Below the pieces are notes generated by a model. The model saw only the letters and a program-made list of their open reading frames with translations, was not told where the DNA came from and ran no database searches. A DNA stretch of 63,586 bases, taken from a bacterium (lineage in GTDB: Bacteria > JACRDZ01 > JAQUKH01). The position numbers were made by a program, and so were the translations under genes. Where the stretch lies: the NCBI GenBank assembly GCA_028719205.1, contig JAQUKH010000011.1:1-63586 (forward strand). The letters run 5' to 3'. This document shows positions 1,822-26,247 of the stretch, one piece after another; positions within the stretch are counted from its first letter, which is position 1, and each line of letters begins with the position of its first letter.

Positions 1822-4017
1822 TTATTTCAATCCCTTTTTTTTCCTCAAATACCATTCAGAAGCAAGTAAAGTTATGAATAAACAAAAAATAAAAATATTA
1901 TCCCATAAAGAAAGATCATATAATATTTTTGCCATAATTTCCCGGCCCTTAATATCGTCCTTAAATTTGCTTAGCTTCAAAGGATCCAATTCATTTGCTT
2001 TATAAAATTTACCATGGCTTTTATCTGAAATTTCTTTTAAAAATTTATCATTTATTATGACATTATCCCATTCAGTCAGATCTTTTTTGACAAATATTTT
2101 TTTCACAGCCTTGCCTATAAAACCTTTATTGCCATTGGCTTCAGCCGTGATCTCAAACTCTCCGGATGCCAGAGGTTTATATTCCGCTTTTAACAAACCT
2201 TTATTCCCGCCATACGATATAAAATTAATAATATCTTTATTTTTCGATCGCATTTCCTTAATAAAACCGGTTACCTGGAAGGAAACCAGGTCTTTTTGAT
2301 ACACCAAAGCTGCTAAATTGACTATTTCACCCGGAGAATATATAAATTTATCCGTTTCAATATCAAAGGCATCTCCCTTAACCGAAGTGAGCCACGACAA
2401 TATACGGCTGAAAAAGCGTTCATAATACTCAGAAGTTTTACCTATTCCTGTCATTAAAAAATCCCACCGCCACAGGTCATTTGCCATAATTGCCATTGTT
2501 CTTCCCCTGCCGTAAGACTGTACCGCCCAGATAATATCATTTTTATTAACAGAACGTACTGCCAATACCAGCGCGCCCGGTTTACTTTTATTAATAATAT
2601 TATATCCCTCAAGTACCGGTAATTCTTTCCAGATTTGTGTATTCTTTATCGAATCAGGCATCAGTTGTGTTACAGGATGAACTTTCCCGCTACCGGTCAA
2701 TTCAAACAAAAATTTACCTTCGTTAAATAAAGGCTCTTCTCTGTTAAAAACCACAGGTAAAATATCTTCAAGTGATGAATTATTATATCCGCCTCCCTGA
2801 AAAGAATTCCTGCCTCCAAGCATCAAAACGCCGCCGCCGCGCTCCCCGGCAAATTCCTTTAACCATGGAAACGCGTATTCCGGAATTTTCTTCCTTTCAA
2901 TATCATTAAAAATAATAAGGTCGTATTCAAACAATTCTTCTTTTTTTTCAGGAAAACGGTCTTTCCCCTCATTTTCTTCCAGTTTAATAAAATCATTTTT
3001 ATTTTTTGAGACTAAGAATCTGGCCTTGATATCAGGTTCTTTTATTAAATATTCATGCAAAAATTTATACTCCGGAGACGGAGCGCCGGCGAGAACAAGA
3101 ACATAAAGTTTCTCTTTTTTCACATCCAGATAAAACTCCTCTTCATTATTTTTCGAGATTGCCTCACTCCCCTCAACAGGTATCGATATTAAATAACTAT
3201 GCGGGCCTGTTTTTTTCGGAGTAAATTCCAAAGACAAAATATTTTTACCGGGTAAAATTCTGAATTTTTCTTTTTTAATTTCATTTCCATCCTCTTTGAG
3301 AACACAGAATATAGTTTTTGTCCCAAAACCAAAAGAATTAATAACAAAATTTATAGTTACCTTTTTATCCAGAAATGCCTTTTCGGGCGTATTTTGAAGT
3401 TTAATACTTATATCCCTGAGTATTTTCTCTTCCCCCGGGCTTATTGTAAAAACAGGATACGGAAGTTCTTTAACCAATTTAAGCGTATTTTCAGGATCAT
3501 TATCGATCCCGTCACTTAAAATAAAAACTCCTGAAATAGTTTTTATATTAATTTTCTTATTAATCAGAGATAAAGCGCGATAAAAATCAGTGTTAGAATC
3601 ATTGATCTTAAGCGAATCAATATCATTGAGGCTGATCTCATTCAGCCCATTGGAAAACGAATAAAAAGAGAGGGCACTCTTTTTTGACATTTCACTGAAA
3701 TTTTTCTTTTCCTTAAATAATCCTTTCAGCCTGGACAACCTGTCTTTCCCCGTTTCATCCGCGATTCCCATGCTTCCCGAATTATCAATAAGAAAAATAA
3801 TATTATTTTTTTCGATTTTTTCTTTGATTATTGATATTGACGGCTGAAGCAGAATAAATAAAATGACAAAAATTGCCGCCAGGCGCAGGGACAAAAGTAT
3901 TGATCTTAACCTGCCGGTTAAACGCCAATAAGTATAAAAAGTTATTGCCCCTGCAAGTATAACCAGCGGTATAATTATAAAAACAGGAATTGTGGGTGAA
4001 AAAATAATTTTAGGCAT
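1822..4017 (-). CDS. Membrane-anchored von Willebrand factor A protein with glutamine-amidotransferase-like domain
   Basis: This 731-residue protein has two N-terminal membrane helices (about 10-30 and 40-60) and a VWA domain starting near residue 72 with an intact metal-binding DxSxS motif (Asp78, Ser80, Ser82). A long extracytoplasmic region follows, including a class I amidotransferase-like fold (LMLGGRNSFQGGGY, WAVQSYGRGRTMAI). One membrane helix lies near the C-terminus, followed by a basic tail. I see no catalytic Cys in the amidotransferase-like part. It is the last gene of the DUF58-BatA-VWA operon, 2 nt after its neighbour. Such sets (Bat/aerotolerance type) are thought to build envelope complexes, but the exact role is unknown. 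Confidence 0.75.
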   Translation of the reverse strand: MPKIIFSPTIPVFIIIPLVILAGAITFYTYWRLTGRLRSILLSLRLAAIFVILFILLQPSISIIKEKIEKNNIIFLIDNSGSMGIADETGKDRLSRLKGLFKEKKNFSEMSKKSALSFYSFSNGLNEISLNDIDSLKINDSNTDFYRALSLINKKINIKTISGVFILSDGIDNDPENTLKLVKELPYPVFTISPGEEKILRDISIKLQNTPEKAFLDKKVTINFVINSFGFGTKTIFCVLKEDGNEIKKEKFRILPGKNILSLEFTPKKTGPHSYLISIPVEGSEAISKNNEEEFYLDVKKEKLYVLVLAGAPSPEYKFLHEYLIKEPDIKARFLVSKNKNDFIKLEENEGKDRFPEKKEELFEYDLIIFNDIERKKIPEYAFPWLKEFAGERGGGVLMLGGRNSFQGGGYNNSSLEDILPVVFNREEPLFNEGKFLFELTGSGKVHPVTQLMPDSIKNTQIWKELPVLEGYNIINKSKPGALVLAVRSVNKNDIIWAVQSYGRGRTMAIMANDLWRWDFLMTGIGKTSEYYERFFSRILSWLTSVKGDAFDIETDKFIYSPGEIVNLAALVYQKDLVSFQVTGFIKEMRSKNKDIINFISYGGNKGLLKAEYKPLASGEFEITAEANGNKGFIGKAVKKIFVKKDLTEWDNVIINDKFLKEISDKSHGKFYKANELDPLKLSKFKDDIKGREIMAKILYDLSLWDNIFIFCLFITLLASEWYLRKKKGLK

Positions 4018-21736: not shown

Positions 21737-21798
21737 TTTTGAACTCCTGATCTTTTATTGGATTTATTAGAAAAAAACAAACCTATTTGAAAATCGAT

Positions 21799-21828
21799 AA
21801 TCGAGATTTTTTTTATCTAATCTCGATT
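21799..21828. repeat. Inverted repeat with TCGATT units
   Basis: AATCGAGATT (21799-21808) pairs with AATCTCGATT (21819-21828), and the flanking sequence repeats TCGATT several times up to 21846. No gene overlaps it. It sits between thrS and tRNA-Val and may be a repeat remnant or a weak terminator. Confidence 0.5.
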
Positions 21829-21847
21829 TTCGATTCTCGATTGCTCT

Positions 21848-21871
21848 GATTTTCTGCTTCGGCAGAAAATC
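21848..21871. repeat. Perfect hairpin abutting the tRNA CCA end
   Basis: GATTTTCTGC (21848-21857) and GCAGAAAATC (21862-21871) form a 10-bp stem around a TTCG loop, a stable cUUCGg form on the plus strand. It touches the CCA end of the tRNA at 21872. No T-run follows on the minus strand, so it is either a processing or termination structure or another short palindromic element. Confidence 0.6.
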
Positions 21872-21948: not shown

Positions 21949-21983
21949 TGTATTTTAACTTTTCTTACATGAACCAGCGACTC

Positions 21984-22002
21984 TCCCGATGTCACATCGG
22001 GA
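21984..22002. repeat. Palindrome inserted in the anticodon region of the tRNA copy
   Basis: This is a 19-nt inverted repeat with 9-nt arms (TCCCGATGT/ACATCGGGA) around one base. The arm cores TCCCGAT/ATCGGGA recur in the dispersed two-hairpin element (see 62481-62550), which points to a shared repeat family. Confidence 0.7.
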
Positions 22003-22011
22003 CAAGTACTC

Positions 22012-22031
22012 CCTGCCTGCCGGCAGGCAGG
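22012..22031. repeat. GC-rich palindrome inserted in the D-loop of the tRNA copy
   Basis: This is a perfect 20-bp palindrome with arms CCTGCCTGCC/GGCAGGCAGG, much richer in G and C than its surroundings. The tRNA sequence resumes in register on both sides, as expected for an insertion. Confidence 0.75.
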
Positions 22032-22076
22032 TAACCACCTGAGCTAATCGCCCCCTGCTGTATTATAGAATTTATA

Positions 22077-22105
22077 ATTATAAAACCACCTTCATCATTT
22101 GTCAA
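22077..22105 (-). promoter_or_regulatory. Consensus sigma-70 promoter for the tRNA-Val region
   Basis: Minus-strand TTGACA (22105-22100) and TATAAT (22082-22077) are exactly 17 nt apart, a perfect consensus. Transcription near 22070 would pass through the broken copy before reaching the intact tRNA. Confidence 0.85.
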
Positions 22106-22248
22106 GCATAAGTAAGCAAATCAAAGATTTTAAACGGTATTAATTTTACTTTACGAATAAAAGATTTGTGTATAAATAAGGTATTGGCGGATGGGAAAGA
22201 AAACAATTGAAGCAAAATTGGTTATTCCCCGCGAGAGAAGGTTCAACA

Positions 22249-25200
22249 ATGAAAACATTTCAGGGAAACAAAATCATACAAACGGCTGAAAAAATATTGC
22301 TTTGTGTTTTTCTCATCCTGATTTTTTTAATAAATATTTTTACCCCGGTAAAACTTTTCGCGGAAAGTGCAGTTTTAACAATAAAAGTCAGTCTGATTAA
22401 CCACGCTCCGGTACTGGATCCAATACCGGATATTACTGTCCATGCAGGAGACAAAGTTATTTTTACACCTACAGCTGCAGATGAAGAAGGAAATATTCTT
22501 ACTTACAGCTATTCAGGTTGGATGAACGATTCCGTCTATACAACCAATTTAAACGATGTAATTAATAATGATGCAACTGAACATTTTGTAACCGTGACGG
22601 TCTCTGATGGCGGCTTAACCGACAGCAGGGCAGCAAAGGTAACAGTTTGTGTCAATTACTCTCCTCTAAGAATTATAAATATAAAACCTCGGGGTTTGGA
22701 TGGAATTACTGCCTCAAACAGGATATTCAGAGCTTATCCTGGAATAGAATATAATATCAAGGCAGCTGTCCTTGGCGGAATGTATCCTTACCAATTCACA
22801 TGGGAAGCGAATAAACCTTCGTGGTTATCGATGGACAACAATACCGGTGAAATATCAGGAATTGCTCCTGCCTCAGGTTTATTTAACGATATTAAAATCA
22901 GAATTACTGACAGCAAGGGAAGCTCGATAACAGCCCAGTGGTCAATTGAAGTCACAACTCAAAAATTTATCTTTCTGGATGCTGTTAAAGGCAATCTATC
23001 TATAAGAAACGGGGGAACAGGAACAGGAACAATTGACAATCCTTTCAAAAATGTTAAGGATTGGTATGGCACTGCCTCAAGCGACATATCCGGTTTTAAT
23101 GATTATCAGGATTATTTTGTTTATTATAGAACAGGAATATATTATCTTGACGGTTATCTTGACGCGAATAGAAATATGTCCTGTAACGGAAGTAAACCTT
23201 CCGTTCATTTGGCATATCCCGGAGAATATCCAAAATTTAACATGGAAAACGGAAAAACCTGGGAATCTCCAGTTTATGCCGATGGTTTAGAATTTTACAA
23301 CATGCTTGGATATGGGATTATAACCTTAGCGGGAAACAACTATAATACTTTCAGGAACTTGTATATGCATGGTTTAGATCCCGCGTCCGGAATAAATGGC
23401 CAGGGATTTATCAGCGTATTGGCTGATTCAACGCAGGGTAATTATTGGATTTGGCAGGATTGTAAATTTGACAGTTCAAAACAAAACGGTATTGAAATAA
23501 ATAACCTGGATAATTCGTTGATAGAAAATTGTGTTTTTACCAATTTTTTAACGAATAACTTAGACACAACCTCTAATCCGATTTCAACTGATGTTAAATG
23601 CCGTAATCTTACTATCAGAAATAATATAATTTACGGAAACGAAGGAAAAGGAATTTTTGCTTATTTAGCCGCTGAAAATCCGGATATAAATAATAGAAGC
23701 TCAAATATAGAAATTTGTTTTAATAATATTTTTGATTGCGCTGAAGCAGGCCTATCAATAAACACCGGCACAAACGGGATACAGGGTTTTTACGTTTATA
23801 GAAATACAATACAAAGCAATAATACAGAGGCCTCAATTAATATTGAATATGCCGGAAATAATCCGCCTGAAGGCCCTTATGTTTTTAAAAACAATATAAT
23901 AGTCAATCCTAATTTGAAATATTTTGTTTTTATGGGTTGCAGCGCGGACGTAATGAATTATGTAAAAATAAATGATAACTTGTTTGATTCTACCGCGAAC
24001 AATATTGTTGACCCTGCAGGGAATATTACTTATTTTTACGCGCAATATCTTGGGACTTACGGCTGGCAGAAAACAAATACCCCGCCGGTTTTAAATCCTA
24101 TAGCGGATATTACCTTAAATGCGGGACAAACGGTTACTTTTAATCCGTCCGCGACAGATAAAGAAAGCAGTCTCCTTACTTATGCTTATTCCGGATGGAT
24201 AACCAGTGCAAGTTATGTTACAAATTACAGCGATGCAGGAGTACATTATGTGACCGTAACTGTATCAGATGGCACGCTGACAAACAGTAAAACTGTGAAA
24301 GTAACTGTTATAGACGTAAATACAAACTCAGCCCCGACAGCCATTTCTCAGAATTTCACTACAAACGAAGATACAGTATTAAATATAACACTGTCAGGAT
24401 CAGACCTTGACAAAAACACTTTAACTTACAGCATAGTAAACCAGCCTGTTCACGGGACTGTATCCGGCACAGCGCCAAATGTTACTTATAAACCACGCCC
24501 TAATTACAATGGCAATGATTCTTTTACCTTCAAGACCTTTGACGGAAAATTATATTCAAATACGGCTACAGTTTCAATAAAAATCAATCCGGTTAACGAC
24601 GCGCCGGTATTAAATCCAATAGCGAATATTACTGTAAATGAAGGGAAAAAGGTTACCATTAATCCGTCCGCGACGGATATAGACAGCAATATCCTTACTT
24701 ATACTTATTCCGGATGGATGACCAGCTCAAGTTATGTTACAAATTACAACGACGCAGGAGTACATTATGTGACCGTAACTGTATCTGACGGAGCGTTAAC
24801 AAACAGTAAAACTGTAAAAGTAACTGTGATAAATGTCAACCGTATTCCGACAGCTATTTCCCAATCCCTCATTACAAACGAAGATTCGGCGCTAAACATA
24901 ACCCTGAGCGGAACAGATCCTGATAATGATGCCTTAACCTACAGCCTGGTAACTCTGCCTATTCATGGAGCTTTATCCGGTTCAGCGCCAAATGTTACTT
25001 ATAAACCAAACCTTAACTACAACAGCACTGACTCTTTTACATTCAGGGTCTATGACGGCAAAACAAATTCAAATACTGGAACAGTTTCAATAAAAATCAA
25101 TCCGGTTAATGATGTGCCGGTATTAAATTCTATAGGCGATAAGGTAGTTTTAGGCGCAAAAATGGAATTCACTATTTACGCATCTGATGTTGAGAACAAT

Positions 25201-26247
25201 ACATTGACATATACAGCCGGCAACCTGCCAACAGGCGCTAATTTCAATCCGTTGACACATACATTTACCTGGATACCTGATTATAACCAGGCATCATTAA
25301 ATTATCCAAACGTGCTTTTTACCGTAACTGATAACGGAATCCCGCCGGCAAGCTGTAGTGAAAGTATAACAATAACAACAGGCGCTATAAATCATCCTCC
25401 GGTATTAAATCCGATAGGCAATAAAACAGTTAAGGAAGGAGAACTTCTGGAATTTACAGTAACCGGTTTCGATACTGATGGGGATAACTTAACATATACT
25501 GCCGGTAATTTACCCGCAGGCTCCGATTTTGATCAATTAACACAGATCTTTACCTGGACGCCCGGATATAACCAATCGGCTAATTATACAAATATACTTT
25601 TTACTGTTTCAGATAATAATATTCCGCCGGAAACCGACAGCAAAAGTATTACAATAACAGTAGGAGATATGAATCATCCGCCGGTTTTAAATCCAATAGG
25701 AAATAAAGCGGTAAAGGAAAACGCGCTCCTGGAATTTTTTATAACAGGTACTGATGAAGATAATAATGTCTTAACATACTCCGCTAATAATTTACCGGCT
25801 GGAGCGGCATTCGATTCATCAAGCCAGAAGTTCCAATGGTATCCGCAATACAACCAGGCCGGTAATTATGAAAGTGTATTATTCACGGTAACGGATAACG
25901 GAGTCCCGCCGGTAAGCAGCAGTGAAACAATAACTATAACAGTGGGGAATGTAAATCATCCACCGGTATTAAATCCAATAGGAAATAAAGCGGTAGCAGC
26001 AGGAGAACTTCTTGAATTTGTAATAACGGGGAGCGATGTTGACGGCGATATATTAACTTACACGGCGGCTAATCTGCCTCCGGGCGCTTATTTTAATCCA
26101 TCAACACAGACATTTACCTGGACGCCCGGATACAGCCAATCGGCAATTTATACAAACATAATTTTTACTGTAACGGATAACGGTGCCTCTCCGGCAAGCA
26201 AAAATGAAAGTATAATAATAACAGTCCTTTCACCGGGGGCAATATAA
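22249..26247 (+). CDS. Giant secreted beta-helix protein with cadherin-like repeats (paralog A)
   Basis: From the ATG at 22249 (a GAGAAGG site lies upstream) this is a 1332-residue protein. A signal peptide ends near residue 39 (KLFAESA). Next are an Ig/cadherin-like domain (~50-140), a putative-Ig domain (~150-240) and a right-handed parallel beta-helix (~245-610) with repeating NxxIxxNxIxxN-type turns (IRNNIIYGNEGKGI). Eight cadherin-like/He_PIG-type repeats then follow (PVLNPIGNK, APNVTYKP, DNGIPPAS motifs). I see no LPxTG, PEP-CTERM or other anchor. It could be an adhesin or a polysaccharide-binding or -cleaving surface protein. The last ~980 bp of its repeats are identical to paralog B. 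Confidence 0.8.
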   Translation: MKTFQGNKIIQTAEKILLCVFLILIFLINIFTPVKLFAESAVLTIKVSLINHAPVLDPIPDITVHAGDKVIFTPTAADEEGNILTYSYSGWMNDSVYTTNLNDVINNDATEHFVTVTVSDGGLTDSRAAKVTVCVNYSPLRIINIKPRGLDGITASNRIFRAYPGIEYNIKAAVLGGMYPYQFTWEANKPSWLSMDNNTGEISGIAPASGLFNDIKIRITDSKGSSITAQWSIEVTTQKFIFLDAVKGNLSIRNGGTGTGTIDNPFKNVKDWYGTASSDISGFNDYQDYFVYYRTGIYYLDGYLDANRNMSCNGSKPSVHLAYPGEYPKFNMENGKTWESPVYADGLEFYNMLGYGIITLAGNNYNTFRNLYMHGLDPASGINGQGFISVLADSTQGNYWIWQDCKFDSSKQNGIEINNLDNSLIENCVFTNFLTNNLDTTSNPISTDVKCRNLTIRNNIIYGNEGKGIFAYLAAENPDINNRSSNIEICFNNIFDCAEAGLSINTGTNGIQGFYVYRNTIQSNNTEASINIEYAGNNPPEGPYVFKNNIIVNPNLKYFVFMGCSADVMNYVKINDNLFDSTANNIVDPAGNITYFYAQYLGTYGWQKTNTPPVLNPIADITLNAGQTVTFNPSATDKESSLLTYAYSGWITSASYVTNYSDAGVHYVTVTVSDGTLTNSKTVKVTVIDVNTNSAPTAISQNFTTNEDTVLNITLSGSDLDKNTLTYSIVNQPVHGTVSGTAPNVTYKPRPNYNGNDSFTFKTFDGKLYSNTATVSIKINPVNDAPVLNPIANITVNEGKKVTINPSATDIDSNILTYTYSGWMTSSSYVTNYNDAGVHYVTVTVSDGALTNSKTVKVTVINVNRIPTAISQSLITNEDSALNITLSGTDPDNDALTYSLVTLPIHGALSGSAPNVTYKPNLNYNSTDSFTFRVYDGKTNSNTGTVSIKINPVNDVPVLNSIGDKVVLGAKMEFTIYASDVENNTLTYTAGNLPTGANFNPLTHTFTWIPDYNQASLNYPNVLFTVTDNGIPPASCSESITITTGAINHPPVLNPIGNKTVKEGELLEFTVTGFDTDGDNLTYTAGNLPAGSDFDQLTQIFTWTPGYNQSANYTNILFTVSDNNIPPETDSKSITITVGDMNHPPVLNPIGNKAVKENALLEFFITGTDEDNNVLTYSANNLPAGAAFDSSSQKFQWYPQYNQAGNYESVLFTVTDNGVPPVSSSETITITVGNVNHPPVLNPIGNKAVAAGELLEFVITGSDVDGDILTYTAANLPPGAYFNPSTQTFTWTPGYSQSAIYTNIIFTVTDNGASPASKNESIIITVLSPGAI
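25209..26187 (+). repeat. 979-bp identical direct repeat, copy in paralog A
   Basis: By eye, this stretch matches 31001-31979 base for base with a constant offset of 5792, while the flanking coding sequence differs clearly. It encodes about four cadherin-like repeats. The two copies are direct repeats flanking the corrinoid-activation gene. Confidence 0.85.

Follow-up and report, generated by a model that had tools for sequence, protein, structure and literature searches.

A hairpin-disrupted tRNA-Val copy as a probable ORF-less form of a mobile GIY-YIG element of tRNA genes

The broken tRNA-Val copy and the intact gene

The window described here is the whole stretch of DNA analysed, a bacterial contig of 63,586 nucleotides (JAQUKH010000011.1, assembly GCA_028719205.1). 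On its reverse strand, a sigma-70-type promoter (TTGACA-17-TATAAT, 22105-22077) matching the consensus at 12/12 positions precedes a broken copy of tRNA-Val. The first 22 nt of this copy (22053-22032) comprise the 5′ strand of the acceptor, the D-stem, and the D-loop up to A21, and are identical to the intact gene (22/22). Between A21 and G22, the D-loop is interrupted by a perfect 20-bp palindrome, CCTGCCTGCCGGCAGGCAGG (palindrome 1, 22031-22012). The tRNA then resumes for nine bases, GAGTACTTG, which contain the 3′ strand of the D-stem and the start of the anticodon stem (22011-22003). The place of the anticodon arm is taken by palindrome 2, TCCCGATGTGACATCGGGA, which is 19 nt long with arms of 8-9 (22002-21984), and the copy closes with a T-arm remnant, GAGTCGCTGGTTCA (21983-21970), that ends in the T-loop. 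The initial annotation had described the promoter, both palindromes, and the loss of the acceptor 3′ strand, all of which hold; the 3′ strand of the T-stem is missing as well.

A 21-nt spacer (21969-21949) separates the broken copy from the intact tRNA-Val(GAC), which lies directly behind it on the same strand (21948-21872; ARAGORN; Rfam 66.7 bits) with a start-to-start distance of 105 bp. Comparison with other loci (L323, L087-L166) places this spacer at the position of the GIY-YIG gene in the ORF-bearing elements described below. Since these 21 nt are all that lies between the two copies, with no GIY-YIG ORF, the window feature is termed an ORF-less form. A third palindrome, GATTTTCTGCcgaaGCAGAAAATC, is found immediately 3′ of the CCA (21871-21848), and a congener has TGTCCGCCTTGGCGGACA at this site. 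Palindrome 1 does not occur in 100 shuffles of the window, and palindrome 2 is rarer than chance would give (mean 0.07). The predicted RNA fold of the broken copy has an energy of -44.3 kcal/mol (z -3.5).

The intact tRNA had been suggested to depend on readthrough, and prediction agrees. Neither a terminator-like nor a second promoter-like site was found between the two copies, and the promoter ahead of the broken copy most likely serves the intact tRNA-Val(GAC) as well, in one transcript. The Val tRNA anticodons in this genome are GAC, TAC, and CAC, with no second tRNA-Val(GAC) gene among the tRNA loci read. As this is the sole GAC gene found, tRNA-Val(GAC) is very probably made from that promoter. 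On the + strand, divergent from the tRNA-thrS transcript, an ORF of 1346 aa (22207-26247) carries repeated cadherin/Ig-like motifs (LNPI..DGLTNSKTVKVTV).

The same construction in the genome and in a sister species

Three further tRNA genes in the window's genome have a hairpin-bearing 5′ copy: Val-TAC (on contig C47, with three hairpins in the upstream copy), Ala-GGC (on contig C3, two hairpins), and Pro-TGG (two hairpins). The Val-TAC and Ala-GGC copies end at or beside the T-loop breakpoint of the window copy. The full 20-mer of palindrome 1 has just two copies in this genome. Palindromes of the form TCCCGA..TCGGGA, which include palindrome 2, occur at 21 sites (1 for the reversed control), four of them within ~135 bp of a tRNA gene. 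A search of the genome for the GIY-YIG domain (PF01541) gave four matches, none of which is flanked by a broken tRNA on one side and an intact one on the other; the match on contig C14 follows a 3′-type tRNA-Ser element.

A congener (G001), whose thrS is 84 % identical to that of the window's species, carries tRNA-Val(GAC) as a single copy. This is an empty site, as expected of a relative if the feature is a homing element, and it is preceded at ~24 nt by TTGACA-N16/17-TATAAT (L055), similar to the promoter in the window. At tRNA-Ala(GGC), the congener has the order promoter, broken 5′ copy, GIY-YIG ORF, and intact tRNA, while the window's species has the ORF-less form. The hairpin in place of the anticodon arm is AGCCGATGTAGCATCGGCT in the congener and TCCCGATGTGATAATCGGGA in the window's species. 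One and the same gene therefore holds an ORF-bearing form in one sister species and an ORF-less form in the other, with a hairpin that can be exchanged. At the level of sequence comparison, the sister species thereby establishes the kinship of the window's copy.

Other tRNA-linked repeats are also present in the genus. A trailer cassette found after tRNAs (21784-21871 in the window; L294-L323) consists of a hairpin right after the CCA, followed by (C)AGAGCAATCGARAATCG. Its hairpin is freely exchanged (GTCCCGAT..ATCGGGAC, GTCCGCC..GGCGGAC, or TTTTCTGC..GCAGAAAA), and the cassette follows 22/35 of the tRNAs read in the congener vs 6/31 in the window's genome. A second, 3′-type family follows tRNA-Asn, Gln, Leu, Ser, and Cys, with a variant after Phe (L023, L026, L038, L051, and L022 in the window's genome; L300 and L312 in the congener). 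It has the order T-arm reverse complement, conserved core of ~150 nt (GAACGGGAAAGAGGTTTGGAGAAAACGG..GGGGTGACAGT..hairpin..AGGGGCGGAGCCCCTATGGAGAGCGAAGCGAGT), and direct copy of the tRNA 3′ end. Rfam gave only tRNA at threshold for the 3′-type loci.

Distribution of the palindrome in tRNA genes

The palindrome in its tRNA D-loop context, written as the pattern TAGCTCAG-N2-14-CCTGCCGGCAGG, was searched for in 84,980 species genomes, giving at least 113 stretches. Among the matches listed, 83 sites in 80 loci were examined; their hosts belong to Patescibacteria (CPR), Omnitrophota, Bacteroidota, WOR-3, Proteobacteria, and others. The palindrome is placed exactly at the D-loop base used in the window (A21|G22) in 54/83 of these examined sites and two bases further in 9/83. 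At ~30/83 of them, the broken tRNA is directly followed by a short ORF, and ~270-330 bp on begins an intact tRNA, which in most cases is of the same type. Another ~25/83 resemble the window, with no ORF and an intact tRNA ~55-140 bp on. About 12 of these 83 listed matches are not tRNA and represent either chance in GC-rich genes or an intergenic repeat of Flavobacteriia type. In Sinomicrobium (L125), both kinds of palindrome are found at the same two tRNA positions as in the window. Viral contigs, searched as a control, gave one match for the real pattern and none for the reversed one, counts too small to inform.

Several matches depart from this layout. In one locus (L133, reverse complement 3367-3520), the same 20-nt palindrome breaks a duplicated 5′ end of 16S rRNA and is followed by an apparent intact 16S start. 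In four Flavobacteriia loci (L091, L124, L156, L163), the palindrome has a conserved intergenic non-tRNA context, TAGCTCAGTTCTGAGC-palindrome-TAAGGAGGAAT. Five loci (L099, L147, L165, L116, L117) are nearly full-length tRNA genes with a D-loop palindrome and a retained 3′ half, and are possibly an intermediate state or contig-edge copies.

The GIY-YIG nuclease and its association with tRNA genes

The ORF between the broken and the intact tRNA has 78-100 codons and encodes a small GIY-YIG nuclease. The domain (Pfam PF01541) was confirmed in 6/6 ORFs tested, and the Tyr, Tyr-x-Gly, Arg, His, and Glu columns, which are residues of catalytic type, are invariant over 25 sequences. Its pN is ~0.05-0.15 with pS saturated or higher, dN/dS is ~0.13 in the one unsaturated pair, and these sequence measures place the nuclease under purifying selection. 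Several of the ORFs end within the restored tRNA, with their stop codon in its D-loop.

A complete element is ~300 bp long and lies between a tRNA promoter and its tRNA. It consists of a hairpin-disabled copy of the 5′ part of the tRNA, the nuclease ORF, and the intact tRNA. The G+C-rich hairpins of the left copy interrupt the D-loop, replace the anticodon arm, or do both. Because an intact tRNA gene forms the right end of the element, the host retains a working tRNA.

The element was also surveyed by protein alignment in 30 of the genomes from the palindrome scan, all of them picked for already holding at least one element; this gave ~135 loci, and 101 ORFs were read. Of 66 ORFs with full flanks that had not been seeds of the palindrome scan, 41 have a tRNA within 300 nt, as compared with a rough expectation of 1-4 % from tRNA density, and all 41 have a same-strand tRNA. 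For the 25 loci with a tRNA just 3′ of the ORF, a significant 5′ copy of that tRNA was detected upstream in 16, and a hairpin seldom given by shuffles was likewise present in 16; in nine, no tRNA copy was detectable upstream. Hairpin positions recur among the surveyed loci, and hairpin sequences vary. At six other loci (L253, L283, L284, L287, L258, L276), the GIY-YIG ORF follows an intact tRNA and is itself followed by a hairpin-disrupted copy of that tRNA. Some of these mirror-image 3′-type elements form tandem arrays with several broken copies.

A tree of 57 nuclease domains, built on few columns and with rough supports, requires 36 changes of tRNA type. Eight Bacteroidota elements in this tree stay at Arg-TCT, while the Ala element of the sister species groups with two Patescibacteria elements at Val-GAC and Ile-GAT (support 99/97 on the same rough scale). 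One locus (L239) contains two elements in tandem, and another (L113) is a Val/Ile chimera. Together, the tree, the tandem, and the chimera suggest horizontal spread and retargeting, in which the element would jump between tRNA types and, as it appears from the sequences, cross phyla.

Alternative explanations

The initial annotation proposed that short mobile palindromes had invaded a tRNA gene. The outcome of searching this genome and others was mixed. Some copies of the palindromes are ordinary intergenic repeats (on contigs C34, C26, and others), and further ones recur inside broken tRNA genes, in the window's genome and many others, at the same D-loop base. The recurrence in tRNA genes thus stands, and the picture of independent mobile palindromes simply striking one tRNA is incomplete: the palindromes regularly form part of a larger unit, in its disabled 5′ copy of the tRNA. 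A neutral version of that picture would have REP- or RPE-like repeats inserting independently into a tandem tRNA-Val duplicate, with the GIY-YIG association elsewhere a separate matter. The intergenic copies in this and other genomes are in its favour, as are the hairpins that differ at one site between sister species and the roughly equal numbers of ORF-less and ORF-bearing copies among the matches listed. It is nevertheless unlikely, because most insertions among those matches hit the same tRNA base across phyla, most ORF-bearing copies that were not selected for a palindrome have hairpins, and one tRNA gene has an ORF-bearing form in one sister species and an ORF-less form in the other. Hairpin-free duplicated tRNA copies were not seen in the window's genome.

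Fragments of tRNA genes are common in prokaryotes as a product of island integration (PMC9897764), and the broken copy might be read as the att-site scar of an excised island that a tyrosine recombinase had integrated at the tRNA gene. Such an island leaves a 3′ fragment at its far end and carries an integrase. The fragment here is the 5′ part, lies only ~100 bp from the intact gene (105 bp from start to start), and has hairpins at fixed tRNA positions. No integrase is present among the nearby ORFs, and the same layout houses a GIY-YIG ORF elsewhere, which makes a scar very improbable. We give equally little credence to a functional tRNA-like leader regulating tRNA-Val or the downstream thrS. 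The broken copy does precede both in the transcript and has a stable predicted fold, but it is missing at the same locus in the congener, and copies of the same kind are found ahead of Val-TAC, Ala-GGC, and Pro-TGG, which lie away from thrS. A T-box-like leader was set aside along with it. A group I intron was also considered; Rfam gave only tRNA at threshold in this region of the window, and no intron. An assembly or binning artefact is the least credible explanation. The assembly is a MAG-like draft of 68 contigs, but the structure is interior to a 63.6 kb contig, and the same construction is found at four tRNA genes and in isolate genomes (Thermoflavifilum, L110; Sinomicrobium, L125).

Taken together, the window feature is likely, with good confidence, an ORF-less remnant or a non-autonomous form of a mobile GIY-YIG element that targets tRNA genes. 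As the window itself has no ORF, this assignment rests on the architecture and on the sister loci.

Relation to known systems

Group I introns that carry homing endonucleases and reside in tRNA genes of bacteria are likewise selfish, nuclease-bearing, and tRNA-associated (review: PMC3984707). The present element differs in having no intron ribozyme and in leaving the tRNA unsplit. Free-standing GIY-YIG homing endonuclease genes, such as those of the phage T4 Seg proteins, also place a small GIY-YIG gene in or beside a conserved gene, and they work most like the present element. In the Allomyces mitochondrial atp6/ORF360 element, a gene segment is supplied so that the host gene stays intact, and in this restoring of the host gene it is the nearest parallel. 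Unlike these homing genes, the present element targets many bacterial tRNA genes, encodes a bare catalytic domain of ~80 aa, and has a displaced copy that is disabled by palindromes.

Short G+C-rich hairpins are shared with Rickettsia palindromic elements (RPE) and REP/BIME sequences, which are interspersed in a genome, some of them within genes. In contrast, the present hairpins occupy fixed positions in duplicated tRNA 5′ halves alongside a nuclease ORF, and the copy that bears them is sacrificed while an intact tRNA is kept. Islands, phages, and ICEs that integrate at tRNA genes (attL/attR) share the target and the combination of a tRNA fragment with a restored tRNA, but the present element is ~300 bp in total, has no integrase, and has a 5′ rather than a 3′ fragment with hairpins within it. 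None of these systems has all parts of the present element. No description of GIY-YIG elements in bacterial tRNA genes was found in the open literature searched, and the exact palindrome was not found in PMC text.

Proposed mechanism and significance

From the observed layout, recurrence, empty site, and selection on the ORF, the following mechanism can be proposed. The tRNA promoter would drive a joint transcript, and RNase P would cleave it at the 5′ end of the intact tRNA, releasing both the tRNA and the nuclease mRNA. Empty tRNA genes would be cut by the nuclease and, with the filled copy as template for repair, would acquire the element in a homing-like manner. The hairpins would ruin both the nuclease target and the tRNA fold in the left copy of the element. 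In the window, the ORF would have been lost, with the hairpinned left copy and the restored tRNA left over. The weak point is self-protection: the nuclease would be expected to attack the intact tRNA next to the element as well, unless it recognises upstream sequence or some other trick is at work. Recognition reaching upstream of the tRNA would solve this problem because the upstream sequence in the filled allele is the end of the ORF.

On balance, we favour the view that these loci represent a class of minimal mobile elements that spans phyla and has not been described before. Such elements, of ~300 bp and with a single 80-aa GIY-YIG domain, would parasitise the promoters of tRNA genes and occasionally those of rRNA genes. 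They would restore the RNA gene on their right side, inactivate the left copy by means of palindromes that can be exchanged, and switch from one tRNA type to another. If this class is real, the small GIY-YIG genes that are widespread in CPR, Bacteroidota, and Omnitrophota would often be such elements. This would explain the abundance of small GIY-YIG genes in candidate-phylum and Bacteroidota genomes, the hairpinned broken tRNA copies ahead of intact tRNAs, and the recurrence of certain palindromes in different phyla. With its ~300 bp, the element would rank among the smallest autonomous mobile elements, and its choice of target, in terms of tRNA type, D-loop base, and anticodon arm, would be testable with one small protein.
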